DNA from: an uncultured Clostridia bacterium | GTDB lineage: Bacteria > Bacillota > Clostridia > UBA1381 | Reading direction: 5' to 3' | DNA: 64,000 nt | Assembly (NCBI GenBank): GCA_947626135.1 | Contig: CANQQZ010000003.1 | Span: 80,359 to 144,358, forward strand | Shown here: positions 47,187 to 53,316 of the stretch, in pieces | Layout: every line of letters starts with the position of its first letter | Numbering within the stretch: the stretch's first letter is position 1 | Translations under genes and position numbers: made by a program | The notes under the pieces: model-generated | Told to the model about the DNA's origin: nothing | Database searches by the model: none | What the model saw: only the letters and a program-made list of their open reading frames with translations

Positions 47187-48128
47187 TTAATAGAACATCG
47201 CGACCTCTTCGTCGGGGCGCGTAGTCACGGCGATACTCCTGAGCTTCAAAACCGGTCCCTCACCCTCATAAAGCGGATGATACTCAAAATCTATCCGCGC
47301 CGTAATCATCCGCCAGTCGCGGCTTTTAAGCGAAATTTTATCCTCGGTCACGCACACAAACGGCATATACTGTATATCCTCGACACAGCATGTCATGACG
47401 TGGCGCCCGGCAAGAAATGTGTTTTCCGGCATATCCTTTTCCTTAGCGCATATGCCCTTGAATTTGACGGTTTTTCCGATATATTTTTTTATTTCCTCGT
47501 TTACGTCACGGTAAAACACCGCGTAGTCGTCGTCCTTAATCTCAATCACATCCGCGTCGATATCATACGGAAGCGGGTCCTCTATATCATCGTAGGCAAC
47601 GCGTCCGTCCGCGAACTCATACGCTATCTGGGCGCGCTTTGACGCGCCGCGCACGATTTTGTGTATCTCCTGCGTGTCAAGGTTATCGTTCGCGCGGTTT
47701 AAAACGACAAGCTCCGCGCCCTTTAATTTATCGAACATCAGCTGCCGCATATTCGCGTTATACGGCAGAAAGGTCGCCGCGTCGGCAAAAAACATTTCCT
47801 GATATACAGGCCAGTTCCCCGGCAGCGAGCGGTAAAGATCATCCACGAGCCACATGCCGTTATACTCGATAACGGCTTTCTCGGGACGATAAAGCTTTTC
47901 CCATCGCTTAAACGCGCGCGGATTGAGCTCGTCAATGCTTTTTATGTTTATAATCTCAACATTGCCGAAGGCGAATTTGTCCTCGTCATATTCCTCCTCG
48001 CCGCGTTCGCATATGAGCATAAGCGTTTTTTCGCCGGAATTGAAGCGCTCATCCTCCATAGTTTCCTGGATAAATTTCGTTTTGCCGCTCTCTAAAAATC
48101 CCGTAAACAAATAAACTGGTATATCCAT
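47187..48128 (-). CDS. COG0523-like P-loop GTPase with C-terminal DUF1980/TIGR03943-like domain
   Basis: Walker A FTGFLESGKTKFIQ; C-terminus GKTVKFKGICAKEKDMPENTFLAGRHVMTCCVEDIQYMPFVCV. Confidence 0.72.
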   Translation of the reverse strand: MDIPVYLFTGFLESGKTKFIQETMEDERFNSGEKTLMLICERGEEEYDEDKFAFGNVEIINIKSIDELNPRAFKRWEKLYRPEKAVIEYNGMWLVDDLYRSLPGNWPVYQEMFFADAATFLPYNANMRQLMFDKLKGAELVVLNRANDNLDTQEIHKIVRGASKRAQIAYEFADGRVAYDDIEDPLPYDIDADVIEIKDDDYAVFYRDVNEEIKKYIGKTVKFKGICAKEKDMPENTFLAGRHVMTCCVEDIQYMPFVCVTEDKISLKSRDWRMITARIDFEYHPLYEGEGPVLKLRSIAVTTRPDEEVAMFY

Positions 48129-48200: not shown

Positions 48201-49256
48201 TTAAATATTAAAAGCCTTCGCAACAGCCGATTCGTTTAATTTTGAGCCTATAACGCAGATCCTGCCTATGACGCCCGCTCTGCCGCTTCTGACGTCAATT
48301 TCGCCCGGCACATAGTCAAAATGGAGCCATTCGCCGCCAACGCCCTCAACAATTCCCTTCGCTCTGAGAACCATACCGTATTCGTCCGCGTCATTCAGAC
48401 CGCCGAGTATAGATTCAAGCTCATCGGCGCTGTATTTGTTAGTGGTTTCCGCTCCCCAGCTCGTGAATACATCATCCGCGTGATGATGGTGGTGATGCTC
48501 ATGCTCATGCTCATGCTCATGCTCATGGTCATGCTCATGGTCATGCTCGTGGTGATGCTCGTGCTCATGCTCATGGTCATGCTCGTGGTGATGGTGATGA
48601 CCGCATACCGGACAAACATCCTCCTCCTTGAGCCGCTTCAGCTCCGCCTCAAGCGTATCGGTTTTTTCCATAGCCTCGAGCATTTGTTTTCCGTCAAGCT
48701 TTTCCCACGGCGTAACAATAATTGCCGCTTCGCCGTTCATTTCCCGAAGCAGCGCCACGCAGTCCCGTATTTTCTTTTCCGAAGCGTTTGTAGTATGGCT
48801 CAGAACCACGCAGTTCGCGTGTTCAATCTGATCCTTATAAAACTCCCCGAAATTTTCAATATACATTTTACATTTGTTAACATCCGCAACGGTCGTAAAG
48901 CTGTTGAGCTCAAGCTCCCCGCCAACGCCGCGGACCGCTCGTATAACGTCGCTCAGCTTGCCGACGCCGGACGGCTCAATCAAAATTCTGTCGGGAGCGA
49001 ATTTTTCAACCACCTGCGAAAGCGCCTTGCTGAAATCGCCCACAAGCGAGCAGCATATACAGCCGGAATTCATTTCGGTTATTTCTATTCCCGCGTCCTG
49101 CAAAAAACCGCCGTCAATGCCTATCTCGCCGAATTCGTTCTCGATAAGCACCAGCTTTTCTCCGGAATATGCCTCGGATATCAGCTTTTTTATAAGCGTC
49201 GTCTTACCCGCGCCCAAAAATCCGGAAAAAATATCAATTTTCGTCATGTAAATCAC
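48201..49256 (-). CDS. CobW/COG0523 family GTPase (putative metallochaperone) with His-rich insert
   Basis: FSGFLGAGKTTLIKKL, SGCICCSLVGD, IEPSGVGKLSDVI; HHHHEHDHEHEHEHHHEHDHEHDHEHEHEHEHEHHHHHH. Confidence 0.9.
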   Translation of the reverse strand: MIYMTKIDIFSGFLGAGKTTLIKKLISEAYSGEKLVLIENEFGEIGIDGGFLQDAGIEITEMNSGCICCSLVGDFSKALSQVVEKFAPDRILIEPSGVGKLSDVIRAVRGVGGELELNSFTTVADVNKCKMYIENFGEFYKDQIEHANCVVLSHTTNASEKKIRDCVALLREMNGEAAIIVTPWEKLDGKQMLEAMEKTDTLEAELKRLKEEDVCPVCGHHHHHEHDHEHEHEHHHEHDHEHDHEHEHEHEHEHHHHHHADDVFTSWGAETTNKYSADELESILGGLNDADEYGMVLRAKGIVEGVGGEWLHFDYVPGEIDVRSGRAGVIGRICVIGSKLNESAVAKAFNI

Positions 49257-49334: not shown

Positions 49335-49361
49335 AAAAAACGGGCGTTCGCCCGATTTTTG
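49335..49361. terminator. Rho-independent terminator-like hairpin
   Basis: AAAAAACGGGCGTTCGCCCGATTTTT. Confidence 0.65.
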
Positions 49362-49582: not shown

Positions 49583-50419
49583 TCAAATGACAGACAATCG
49601 GTATTCGTCACTCAGTTTTTGCTCAAGCGCTGCTATCAATGCTTCAAGCTCAACCTTTGTCTGAGCCTGAAGACCTAAGCTCTTTGCTATTCCGTCCGAA
49701 TCGGTGCTTATCCTTGCGGAAAGCGAAAGCTTTAAACGATTAGACATTTCATTGAAATCATATGCATGTATATGTACCGAATCGCCGGTCCTTACACCTT
49801 GAATGTGAGAAAATTGAAATTCCCGGTTTATATATTCAAAAAACGGTTTTTGAATAATCAAAACCAAATGTTTGTTAAGATATTCAAAGGTTTCAGACTT
49901 ATGATGCATTTGAACCAGTATGGTTTTTGCTGTCATTTTCCAATTCATCCAAAAAGACTTTCCGTTTTCTATATCAGCCCTTTCTACGGGAAAACCATGT
50001 TCATGCAAAAGCCGCTGACGTTCCGGCCAGACTGTCCCGGTTGTATCCATAGTCTGCAATTCTATTCCTATGAAATCTTTTACCTTTCCGTCTTTGGCAG
50101 AAATAAGAAAATAATCTACATTTCCGCCCGGGATAGAAACCTCAGGAACCACATATAATTCATTTCCCGGTTCGTGCAAAGTAAGCAAGTGCAGGCAATC
50201 AAAAAAAATCTGATTGTTTTCTAAAAGTCTGTTAGGGCAAATAATAATATTGTTTGCCTGATACTGAACAGTGCAGGTCCCTATTGCTGTTCCGGGATCG
50301 CTTTTCCGTGTTTTATAGCATTTTTTACCCGAATACGGGCATCGCTGCTGTGACACAGCCTGTTTCAAGTCGGCACTGTCATCGCAGTATACGCCAAACA
50401 GTTCTTTTACTTTACTCAT
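49583..50419 (-). CDS. NotI-family-like restriction endonuclease
   Basis: Cys-rich N-terminus RCPYSGKKC...GTCTVQYQANNIIICPNRLL and IGIELQTMDTTGTVWPERQR resemble NotI; adjacent to DNA methyltransferase. Confidence 0.78.
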   Translation of the reverse strand: MSKVKELFGVYCDDSADLKQAVSQQRCPYSGKKCYKTRKSDPGTAIGTCTVQYQANNIIICPNRLLENNQIFFDCLHLLTLHEPGNELYVVPEVSIPGGNVDYFLISAKDGKVKDFIGIELQTMDTTGTVWPERQRLLHEHGFPVERADIENGKSFWMNWKMTAKTILVQMHHKSETFEYLNKHLVLIIQKPFFEYINREFQFSHIQGVRTGDSVHIHAYDFNEMSNRLKLSLSARISTDSDGIAKSLGLQAQTKVELEALIAALEQKLSDEYRLSVI

Positions 50420-50431
50420 AGCGCTATCCTC

Positions 50432-51502
50432 CTATACTGACAATGAAAACTGTTCATTTCCCGGCTGCCCGCAGCGTTCCCGCGCAATGAAAATGTATTC
50501 ATCGGAAATATCAATACCAATAGACTTTCTTTTATATTCCATTGCCACAAGGCAGGACGTACCTGTTCCGACGAACGGGTCTAACACGATCCCATTTTCG
50601 GGACATGTCAATATTATAGGCGTTCGGCATAAATCAGCGGGATATGGTGCGAAATGCGAGGTTCGCCCTTGTGTATCTTCCGGTATAATGTCCCATATAT
50701 CGCCCGGTTTACTTCCTTTGGGATTGTATTTCAGGAAGTAGAAACCTTTTTCGTGTAATTCCCTTGCCCTTCCCGAAATCCGTTCTGAATCTGAATGCGT
50801 AGTTCTCTGAGCTCCTTTTATTACCATCCTGAAATCAGATACTTCACCGTTTTGAACTTGCTTCAACATTTCATCCAGCGCAGCCAAAGCATTCTGTTTT
50901 TGCTCGTCTGTCAATTCTGTGGAAAGTTCGATTTTTCTTTTATACCTGACACCTGTAACGCCCGTTGCCGATACAACAGCGCCGTTGACAACTTTTGTAC
51001 TTTTAGGCGTGTTTCTTATGCTGTCCACATCATAGTAATACTGCTTTTCCTGCTTCACAAAATGAAACATAGGCTCATACACGTTGCGCAACCTGTCGTT
51101 TGTATTATCCAAACCGCCTTTTACCTTATTCCATATAATTGTATTTCTGAGGATCCATCCCTTTTCTGTCAATGCAATCGCCACACGCCAGGGAATATTT
51201 AACAAGGATTTTTGATAGTAGGTGTCTCCAATGTTAAGCCAGAAAGAACCGGTCGGCTTTAATACGCGATAAACCTGCATAAATACATGCACAAGGTTTT
51301 TAATGTATTTATTGTAATCGGCTTCAAGCCCTATTCCGCCGTTCGCATATTGCCTTTTGTTCCAATATGGCGGAGAGGTGATACAACAATCAATACAATC
51401 ATCCGGAAACTGCTGTAATAATTCCAGTGCATCGCCAACGTAAAATTGCGGCATTATTGTCTGCGTATCTATATAATTGGTAATAGCTTGATTAACGTTC
51501 AA
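50432..51502 (-). CDS. Site-specific DNA methyltransferase (probably N4-cytosine or N6-adenine, type II)
   Basis: TSPPYWNKRQY catalytic motif and DPFVGTGTSCLVAMEYKRKSIGIDIS AdoMet-binding motif in beta-class order. Confidence 0.93.
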   Translation of the reverse strand: MNVNQAITNYIDTQTIMPQFYVGDALELLQQFPDDCIDCCITSPPYWNKRQYANGGIGLEADYNKYIKNLVHVFMQVYRVLKPTGSFWLNIGDTYYQKSLLNIPWRVAIALTEKGWILRNTIIWNKVKGGLDNTNDRLRNVYEPMFHFVKQEKQYYYDVDSIRNTPKSTKVVNGAVVSATGVTGVRYKRKIELSTELTDEQKQNALAALDEMLKQVQNGEVSDFRMVIKGAQRTTHSDSERISGRARELHEKGFYFLKYNPKGSKPGDIWDIIPEDTQGRTSHFAPYPADLCRTPIILTCPENGIVLDPFVGTGTSCLVAMEYKRKSIGIDISDEYIFIARERCGQPGNEQFSLSV

Positions 51503-51864
51503 ATCATCATCCCCCTTTTTTTGAGGAATTTACCGGACATAAAACCCCATGATTTATAGTATCAAAATATTACATGTTTGTCAACAACGCATCTGTAAGT
51601 ATTTTCAGGGTATACTTTTGATTTATCTTTGCGGATTTGGGCGACAAGCAAGCGGCAAATAAGCATAACAGAACGGTCAAATCCCTTGATTTGCATGGCT
51701 TTTAACCGATTTTGACATATTTTTGCAAATGTATCTATTCCCATATACATCAATAAAAGTGAATTGCTGTCTTATCTCACATCGACCCGCGCGGTATGCC
51801 TTTTATTTGATTTTGCTGTATATAGGCTTAACCGCGCGGAGCTCAGGATGGATCTTACTTAAAA

Positions 51865-53316
51865 TCATGAGTTGTTTTTCCCGTAGGTGCTCAGCATGAA
51901 CCGGCAAAATTCCTCGTTGTCGCGGGTGTTTCCGAGTGTTTTCAGAATCATGGCTATTGATTCGGCAAAAGCGCTGTGCGAAAGCTCGCGGCGAATAACG
52001 CGGCTCGCTTCAAGCTCGGTTTCGGTAAGCAGATCCTCCTCCCTGCGCGTGCTTGTTTTTAAAATATCCACCGCGGGGAAAATACGGCGCTCCTGGAGAT
52101 TCCTGTCAAGCTTCAGCTCCATATTGCCGGTGCCCTTAAATTCCTCAAAAATCACGTCATCCATGCGGCTGCCCGTTTCAACGAGCGCTGTCGCAAGAAT
52201 TGTAAGACTTCCGCCTTCTTCAATATTTCTCGCCGCGCCGAAAAACTTTTTCGGCTTGAACAGCGCTTCGGGGTCGAGACCGCCGGAAAGGGTCCGTCCC
52301 GTAGGAGTGACGGTTTGATTATAAGCGCGCGCGAGCCTTGTTATTGAGTCGAGCAGCACTACGACGTCCTTTTTCTGCTCCACAAGTCTCATTGCGCGCT
52401 CCAAAACCATTTCGGCGGTTTTGCAGTGATCGATCGCCTGGCGGTCAAAGGTGGAATGAATAACCTCCGCGTCAACGGAGCGCTTCATATCCGTAACCTC
52501 CTCCGGTCGCTCGTCAATAAGAAGTATGATAAGCTTAACATCGGGGTGGTTTTTCGCTATTGCGCGCGCAATTTCCTTTATAATAGTGGTTTTTCCGGCT
52601 TTGGGCGGCGCCACAATCATTCCGCGCTGTCCCTTGCCGATAGGCGATATTAAATCTATAAGCCTTGCCGACAGATTATGCCTGTCGCCTGTATCAAGAT
52701 GCAGCTTTTCAGTCGGATATATCGGCGTGAGACGCTCGAACGAGCGCCGCCTTAACGCGATTTCCAGCGGGTCGCCGTTAATTTTTTTGACAAACAAAAG
52801 CGGAGCGTATTTATCATCACCTTGCCCGGGGCGGGAATCTCCAAGAATTTCATCGCCGGTTTTCAGATTAAAACGCCGTATCTGCGTAGGCGAAACGTAT
52901 ACGTCGTTTGAACCGGCACGGTAATTTTCAAATCTGAGAAAACCGAATCCGTCAGCCATGACCTCCAGCACACCGCATACCTCTATGGCGTCCGCCGGTC
53001 GCTCGCGTTTCTTTCTTTCCGGAGGCTGCTCGTCCCGACGTTCCCGCTCGGGCGCTGTATGCTTAAGCCGCCGCGCGCTGTTTTCCGCAGGTTCCGCGGT
53101 TCTGCCGCTCCTCAATCCGTCGTCCGCCGCGCTCCTTTCGGGATAATCCGATGAGTGCCGCAGGGTCCTGCCGGAATTTTCCGCAATAAGCATACGCTGC
53201 TGCTCTATCCTTGCAACCAAATCAACCTTTTTCAGAGTCGAGACCCCTTTTAACCCCAAGCCCTTGGCAAGCTGCAATAGCTCGCTGCGCTTTTTCTTAT
53301 CAAGCTCTTCCTGCAT
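51865..53316 (-). CDS. rho: Transcription termination factor Rho
   Basis: ELLQLAKGLGLKGVSTLKKVDLVARI, GFGFLRFENYRAGSNDVYVSPTQIRRFNLKTGDEI, GKGQRGMIVAPPKAGKTTIIKEIA, LIDERPEEVTDMKRSVDAEVI. Confidence 0.96.
   Translation of the reverse strand: MQEELDKKKRSELLQLAKGLGLKGVSTLKKVDLVARIEQQRMLIAENSGRTLRHSSDYPERSAADDGLRSGRTAEPAENSARRLKHTAPERERRDEQPPERKKRERPADAIEVCGVLEVMADGFGFLRFENYRAGSNDVYVSPTQIRRFNLKTGDEILGDSRPGQGDDKYAPLLFVKKINGDPLEIALRRRSFERLTPIYPTEKLHLDTGDRHNLSARLIDLISPIGKGQRGMIVAPPKAGKTTIIKEIARAIAKNHPDVKLIILLIDERPEEVTDMKRSVDAEVIHSTFDRQAIDHCKTAEMVLERAMRLVEQKKDVVVLLDSITRLARAYNQTVTPTGRTLSGGLDPEALFKPKKFFGAARNIEEGGSLTILATALVETGSRMDDVIFEEFKGTGNMELKLDRNLQERRIFPAVDILKTSTRREEDLLTETELEASRVIRRELSHSAFAESIAMILKTLGNTRDNEEFCRFMLSTYGKNNS

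Follow-up and report, generated by a model that had tools for sequence, protein, structure and literature searches.

The window analyzed here (64,000 nucleotides of a contig from an uncultured member of the Clostridia, referred to as the host in the following) harbors on its minus strand two adjacent genes of a restriction-modification (R-M) pair. The upstream gene (50432-51502) encodes a predicted beta-class DNA methyltransferase (MTase) of 356 amino acids; it begins with a TTG codon, seven bases ahead of which AAAGGGGG is found. It is followed by the gene of a NotI-family type II restriction endonuclease (REase) of 278 amino acids (49583-50419), whose ATG lies 12 bases past the MTase stop codon and has AGGAGG eight bases ahead. 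Both frames are open and their ribosome-binding sites are good. The pair is located between rho (51865-53316), its upstream neighbor, and the gene of a CobW-type GTPase downstream of it (48201-49256, minus strand; PF02492, E = 7e-37), and its GC contents of 0.400 and 0.418 compare with 0.49-0.53 for the neighboring genes and 0.491 for the whole window. Both this position and the lower GC content had been pointed out in an earlier note on this DNA, as had the coordinates, the strand and several residues of the open reading frame 49583-50419, namely C27, C34, C49, C61 as part of a C-P-N-R segment, and I-E-L-Q-T-M-D (119-125), and all of these were recovered.

A consensus scan revealed possible expression signals that flank the pair on either side. 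A putative promoter of the R-M unit (51556-51584, minus strand) consists of TTGACA and TACTAT separated by 17 nt, with a TG before the second hexamer and 10 of 12 consensus matches. Promoter-like sites in this region show no excess over shuffled sequence, and this upstream site is suggestive only. The stretch that separates cobW from the REase gene contains a putative intrinsic terminator (49341-49354, minus strand), which is composed of the hairpin CGGGCGAACGCCCG and a T run and fits both strands. The neighboring CobW-family GTPase contains a long His/Glu/Asp-rich run, probably a metal-handling stretch, and the gene next to it (47187-48128) combines a weak cobW match with a strong match to DUF1980_C.

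The REase had been described as NotI-like in the earlier note. In a search against Pfam, NotI (PF12183) was the sole match of any weight, with 22.2 bits at a cut-off of 22, so that the score of the window REase is marginal when taken by itself. However, each of 11 close relatives (54-76% identity) matches PF12183 as well, and within a family set of 23 proteins, to which homologs from plasmids, viral contigs and Pseudomonas down to about 20% identity were added, the window REase and all 22 aligned relatives match this family with E ≤ 0.01. Seventeen positions are invariant in all 23 proteins (C27, K36, C34, C49, C61, P62, R64, E93, D102, F116, E120, Q122, G128, K165, Q170, K174, and Y220). Of the six cysteines of the window REase (positions 12, 27, 34, 49, 61, and 75), C12 and C75 vary within the set. 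As judged from this conservation, C27, C34, C49, and C61 would form an N-terminal Cys4 element, i.e., a predicted metal site of the NotI type, and D102, E120, and Q122 a putative active site of the PD-(D/E)xK type with glutamine in place of lysine. In NotI, a glutamine likewise replaces the catalytic lysine and the Cys4 motif holds iron (PMC4081073); iron is accordingly the metal that might be expected at the Cys4 site of the window REase.

A phmmer search of the PDB with the single REase sequence yielded nothing meaningful, and AlphaFold2 on the 12 close relatives reached a pLDDT of only 39. It was the addition of distant NotI-family members that gave a usable PDB profile match and a usable model. 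The profile of the 23 REases matched a single PDB entry, NotI (3bvq, E = 4.6e-8), with D102, E120, and Q122 placed opposite D160, E182, and Q184 of NotI (positions counted along the printed alignment). With a 17-sequence alignment, AlphaFold2 returned a model with a pLDDT of 87.2 and a pTM of 0.86, for which chains A and B of NotI entry 3c25 were the sole Foldseek matches in the PDB below an E-value of 0.001 (E = 1.5e-8, query TM 0.60). The rmsd of 7.3 over 333 columns, at 15% identity in the structural alignment, is large, which suggests domain shifts and size differences, as NotI comprises 383 amino acids and the window REase 278. In this model, the REase has the NotI fold. The two enzymes are further alike in the Cys4 N-terminal element, the D...E-x-Q site and the E-[LI]-Q-T-M-D segment, and differ in the spacing of the four cysteines. 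There is thus hardly any doubt that the REase belongs to the NotI family, and the earlier claim withstood the two findings named beforehand as speaking against it, namely that NotI would be matched neither by HMM nor by structure, or that the Cys4 and E-x-Q residues would prove lost in an alignment. The implication that the family had not been described before did not hold: NCBIfam contains no model for the REase, but the family is already described, since RefSeq annotates close plasmid-borne homologs as "NotI family restriction endonuclease".

The partner gene matches PF01555 (N6_N4_Mtase, E = 6.4e-49) and the PADLOC model MTase_II (E = 3.5e-70). Its product carries TSPPYW at positions 42-47, followed by a central region and, near the C-terminus, by DPFVGTGTS (motif I; DPFxGTG at 308-315); T42-S43-P44-P45-Y46-W47 and D308-P309-F310 are invariant in a 12-member alignment. 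This order of motif IV (TSPPY), target recognition domain and motif I (DPFxGTG) is that expected of a beta-class enzyme, in agreement with the earlier assignment. The TSPPY motif favors m4C as product, with m6A being possible. The MTase gene lies directly upstream of the REase gene in all 12 loci examined, which come from Bacillota, Cyanobacteriota, Pseudomonadota, and Bacteroidota, and for five of six plasmids with close REase homologs an MTase is annotated at the match. The Pfam matches, the invariant catalytic residues and the adjacency of the same two genes in all 12 loci confirm that the two-gene R-M pair is real and far beyond chance.

More distant NotI-family REases share the invariant residues C27, C34, C49, and C61 as well as D102, E120, and Q122 at 21-28% identity, but not the type of partner. 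In contrast to the beta-class TSPPY MTase of the window, C5 MTases are found next to them in Sphingobium, Sedimenticola, and a Pseudomonas (G160), and a Dam-like adenine MTase on a Thermus plasmid. The REase fold has therefore been combined with at least three kinds of MTase. Where these distant REases are plasmid-borne, genes of recombinases or integrases are found beside them or close by.

Of 150 relatives of the host, a single one, a genome from the same class, contains the REase. Copies with 55-59% identity are found on plasmids of Acinetobacter, Klebsiella, Enterobacter, and Serratia. These plasmid pairs, among them those on pBspH9 of Acinetobacter sp. NEB 394 and on pRHBSTW-00515_4 of Klebsiella pneumoniae, belong to the same family and likewise have the MTase upstream; they are plasmid-borne, whereas the window pair resides on a contig beside rho. 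No phage record with the REase was found. A comparison with the same-genus genome G004 yielded no empty site, as rho is followed by a gene other than cobW there and the rho neighborhood differs within the genus, and the flanks of the pair contain no direct repeat resembling a target-site duplication. The patchy distribution, the plasmid-borne homologs and the low GC content support horizontal acquisition of the pair, as the earlier note had proposed.

Hexamer counts were compared with maximal-order Markov expectations in sampled DNA of the host (464 kb), of the carrier Pseudomonas marginalis (416 kb) and of a Duganella carrier (113 kb). In the host, CGTACG was not seen at all at an expectation of 68.3, the lowest ratio among 2043 hexamers. 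The same palindrome ranked lowest among 2075 hexamers in P. marginalis (3 seen, 56.9 expected) and among 1986 hexamers in Duganella (1 seen, 12.1 expected), the latter having been examined after CGTACG had already been picked from the other two. The hexamers CGTACA and CGTACC were not depleted in any of the three, and two non-carriers from the host genus contained CGTACG at expectation (13/16.7 and 50/53.3). Whole-genome counts are in line with this. The host has 8 CGTACG sites in 2.33 Mb vs. 101, 70, 109, and 655 in four same-genus genomes, P. marginalis has 79 in 6.4 Mb vs. 325-1140 in 38 of 39 sampled congeners, and the Duganella carrier has 47 in 6.6 Mb, the lowest count of 41 genomes, with the next one at 226. 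In the present analysis, the R-M pair is the sole known trait common to these three organisms. This depletion is indirect evidence for site-specific cleavage by the predicted REase, and the near-absence of CGTACG from the host and two unrelated carriers makes this palindrome its likely target.

The target is called likely, and not certain, because other carriers are weakly depleted or not depleted and because one Pseudomonas without the gene is depleted. In sampled stretches of three carrier MAGs, observed and expected counts of CGTACG were 21/36 (G152), 4/5.0 (G234), and 14/17 (G238); a recently acquired pair, misbinning, or specificity drift to a different target would each explain these values. 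The plasmids of Acinetobacter sp. NEB 394 contain 4 CGTACG sites in 73 kb and show no obvious depletion. In the 1.8 Mb of carrier G232, CGTACG occurs 19 times, which is low yet not the lowest count in its genus, and its observed/expected ratio is biased upward as the sampled stretches were taken from contigs known to hold CGTACG. Carrier G235 is uninformative, since nearly all genomes of its gammaproteobacterial genus are without CGTACG: most of the 16 genomes have a handful of sites and also few of the control hexamer GCATGC, so palindrome avoidance is genus-wide there. Similarly, the carriers from the Oscillatoriales contain few CGTACG and few of the control hexamer. The depleted Pseudomonas without an REase homolog (G189) has 50 sites in 5.5 Mb, more than 10-fold below most congeners. 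Other causes of CGTACG depletion therefore exist, and it is possible that G189 holds another CGTACG-specific system. Its match to the MTase is a prophage-type gene that is also present in P. marginalis. This shared prophage-borne MTase was rejected as an explanation of the depletion, as it adjoins a phage-type integrase and has no recognizable nuclease beside it.

Other targets have to be weighed against CGTACG. The earlier note had guessed at a GGCC-containing site, which would correspond to a genuine NotI-family R-M system with GGCC in its target, as is the case for NotI, and with the CGTACG depletion having some other cause. NotI itself recognizes a GGCC-centered site, GCGGCCGC, which with its 8 bp occurs too rarely to be counted, and the host shows a strong depletion of GGCC (92 sites in 464 kb at an expectation of 1798). 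However, G003, a non-carrier from the host genus, shows GGCC depletion as well (90 seen, 561 expected), the depleted 4-mers of the carrier P. marginalis do not include GGCC, and in Duganella the count of CGGCCG comes close to expectation (123/134, two-strand counts halved). What the unrelated carriers have in common is the depletion of CGTACG, not of GGCC. The rarity of GGCC in the host more likely reflects another system, a GGCC-containing target is improbable, and avoidance points away from the guess and to CGTACG. Somewhat less improbable, though still unlikely, is a NotI-family system that cuts a different palindrome, with specificity varying among relatives, for instance CCATGG or CTGCAG in the host and TCATGA, the BspHI site, in Acinetobacter sp. 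NEB 394. The host is indeed depleted in CCATGG (2/60) and CTGCAG (7/78), some carriers show no CGTACG depletion, and NEB 394, which carries a homolog on pBspH9, is the source strain of BspHI (PMC8259958). Against this, the lowest-ranking hexamers of P. marginalis and Duganella include neither CCATGG nor CTGCAG, and the counts of TCATGA equal or come close to expectation in the NEB 394 plasmids as well as in the host and P. marginalis. NEB 394 also possesses at least one further type II system, which belongs to the BsuBI/PstI family and is encoded on pBspH5. TCATGA, which had been considered as target for the location of the homolog on pBspH9 of the BspHI strain, was rejected, since none of the sets examined showed a notable depletion. 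Least probable of all, and very much so, is that the cassette has decayed or is inactive, with the MTase alone still working. Loss of the nuclease is possible in a mobile cassette, but both frames with their good ribosome-binding sites are intact, the REase keeps all invariant residues of its family, and the host is nearly devoid of the predicted site, as expected under continuing restriction pressure.

Apart from the R-M pair, the near-absence of GGCC, CCATGG, and CTGCAG from the host suggests further restriction systems elsewhere in the genome or lineage. In 240 kb of the same-genus genome G003, ACGT was seen 2 times at an expectation of 547 and ATTAAT 2 times at an expectation of 53, and different genomes of the host genus seem to avoid different palindromes.

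Considering all these observations, the pair probably constitutes a stand-alone, horizontally spread type IIP R-M system of a NotI-fold REase and a beta-class MTase, with CGTACG as the likely target. The MTase would shield the host by methylating a base inside this target, preferentially to m4C and possibly to m6A. The REase, as a PD-(D/E)xQ enzyme of the NotI fold with a Cys4 metal-binding N-terminal element, would introduce double-strand cuts into unmethylated incoming DNA. By analogy with NotI, which cuts GC^GGCCGC, cleavage would probably occur as C^GTACG and leave a 4-base 5' overhang.

The predicted target differs from that of NotI in length (6 vs. 8 bp) and in its core (GTAC vs. GGCC). 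BsiWI, SplI, and Pfl23II are known to cut C^GTACG, the sources being a filamentous cyanobacterium for SplI and a pseudomonad for Pfl23II. Compared by specificity, these enzymes share the recognition sequence predicted for the window REase, and cyanobacteria and pseudomonads also hold homologs of the window pair. In the literature examined, CGTACG was nowhere connected with a NotI-family enzyme, and no specificity was given for plasmid pairs of the NEB 394 and Klebsiella type. NEB 394, described as "Acinetobacter species H, formerly Bacillus species H", is the source of the BspHI series (PMC8259958) and its methylome has been determined (PMC9122589); REBASE may for this reason already hold a motif assigned to the pBspH9 pair.

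What this analysis adds to a known family is the prediction of CGTACG as target. The NotI family comprises few enzymes, whose specificities are difficult to deduce from sequence. By comparing site avoidance between carriers and related non-carriers, an uncharacterized R-M pair can be assigned a target, and in practical terms CGTACG would be a site to avoid when transforming such hosts. It is further conceivable, though tentative, that a NotI-fold subfamily cutting CGTACG has spread together with its MTase between four phyla and has had its target core changed from GGCC to GTAC. If true, such re-targeting would identify the structure and the genes behind the BsiWI/SplI specificity. For a subfamily found in four phyla, the predicted change of specificity is open to comparison with the solved NotI-DNA complex, and it would show how the Cys4/PD-ExQ scaffold of NotI changes recognition.
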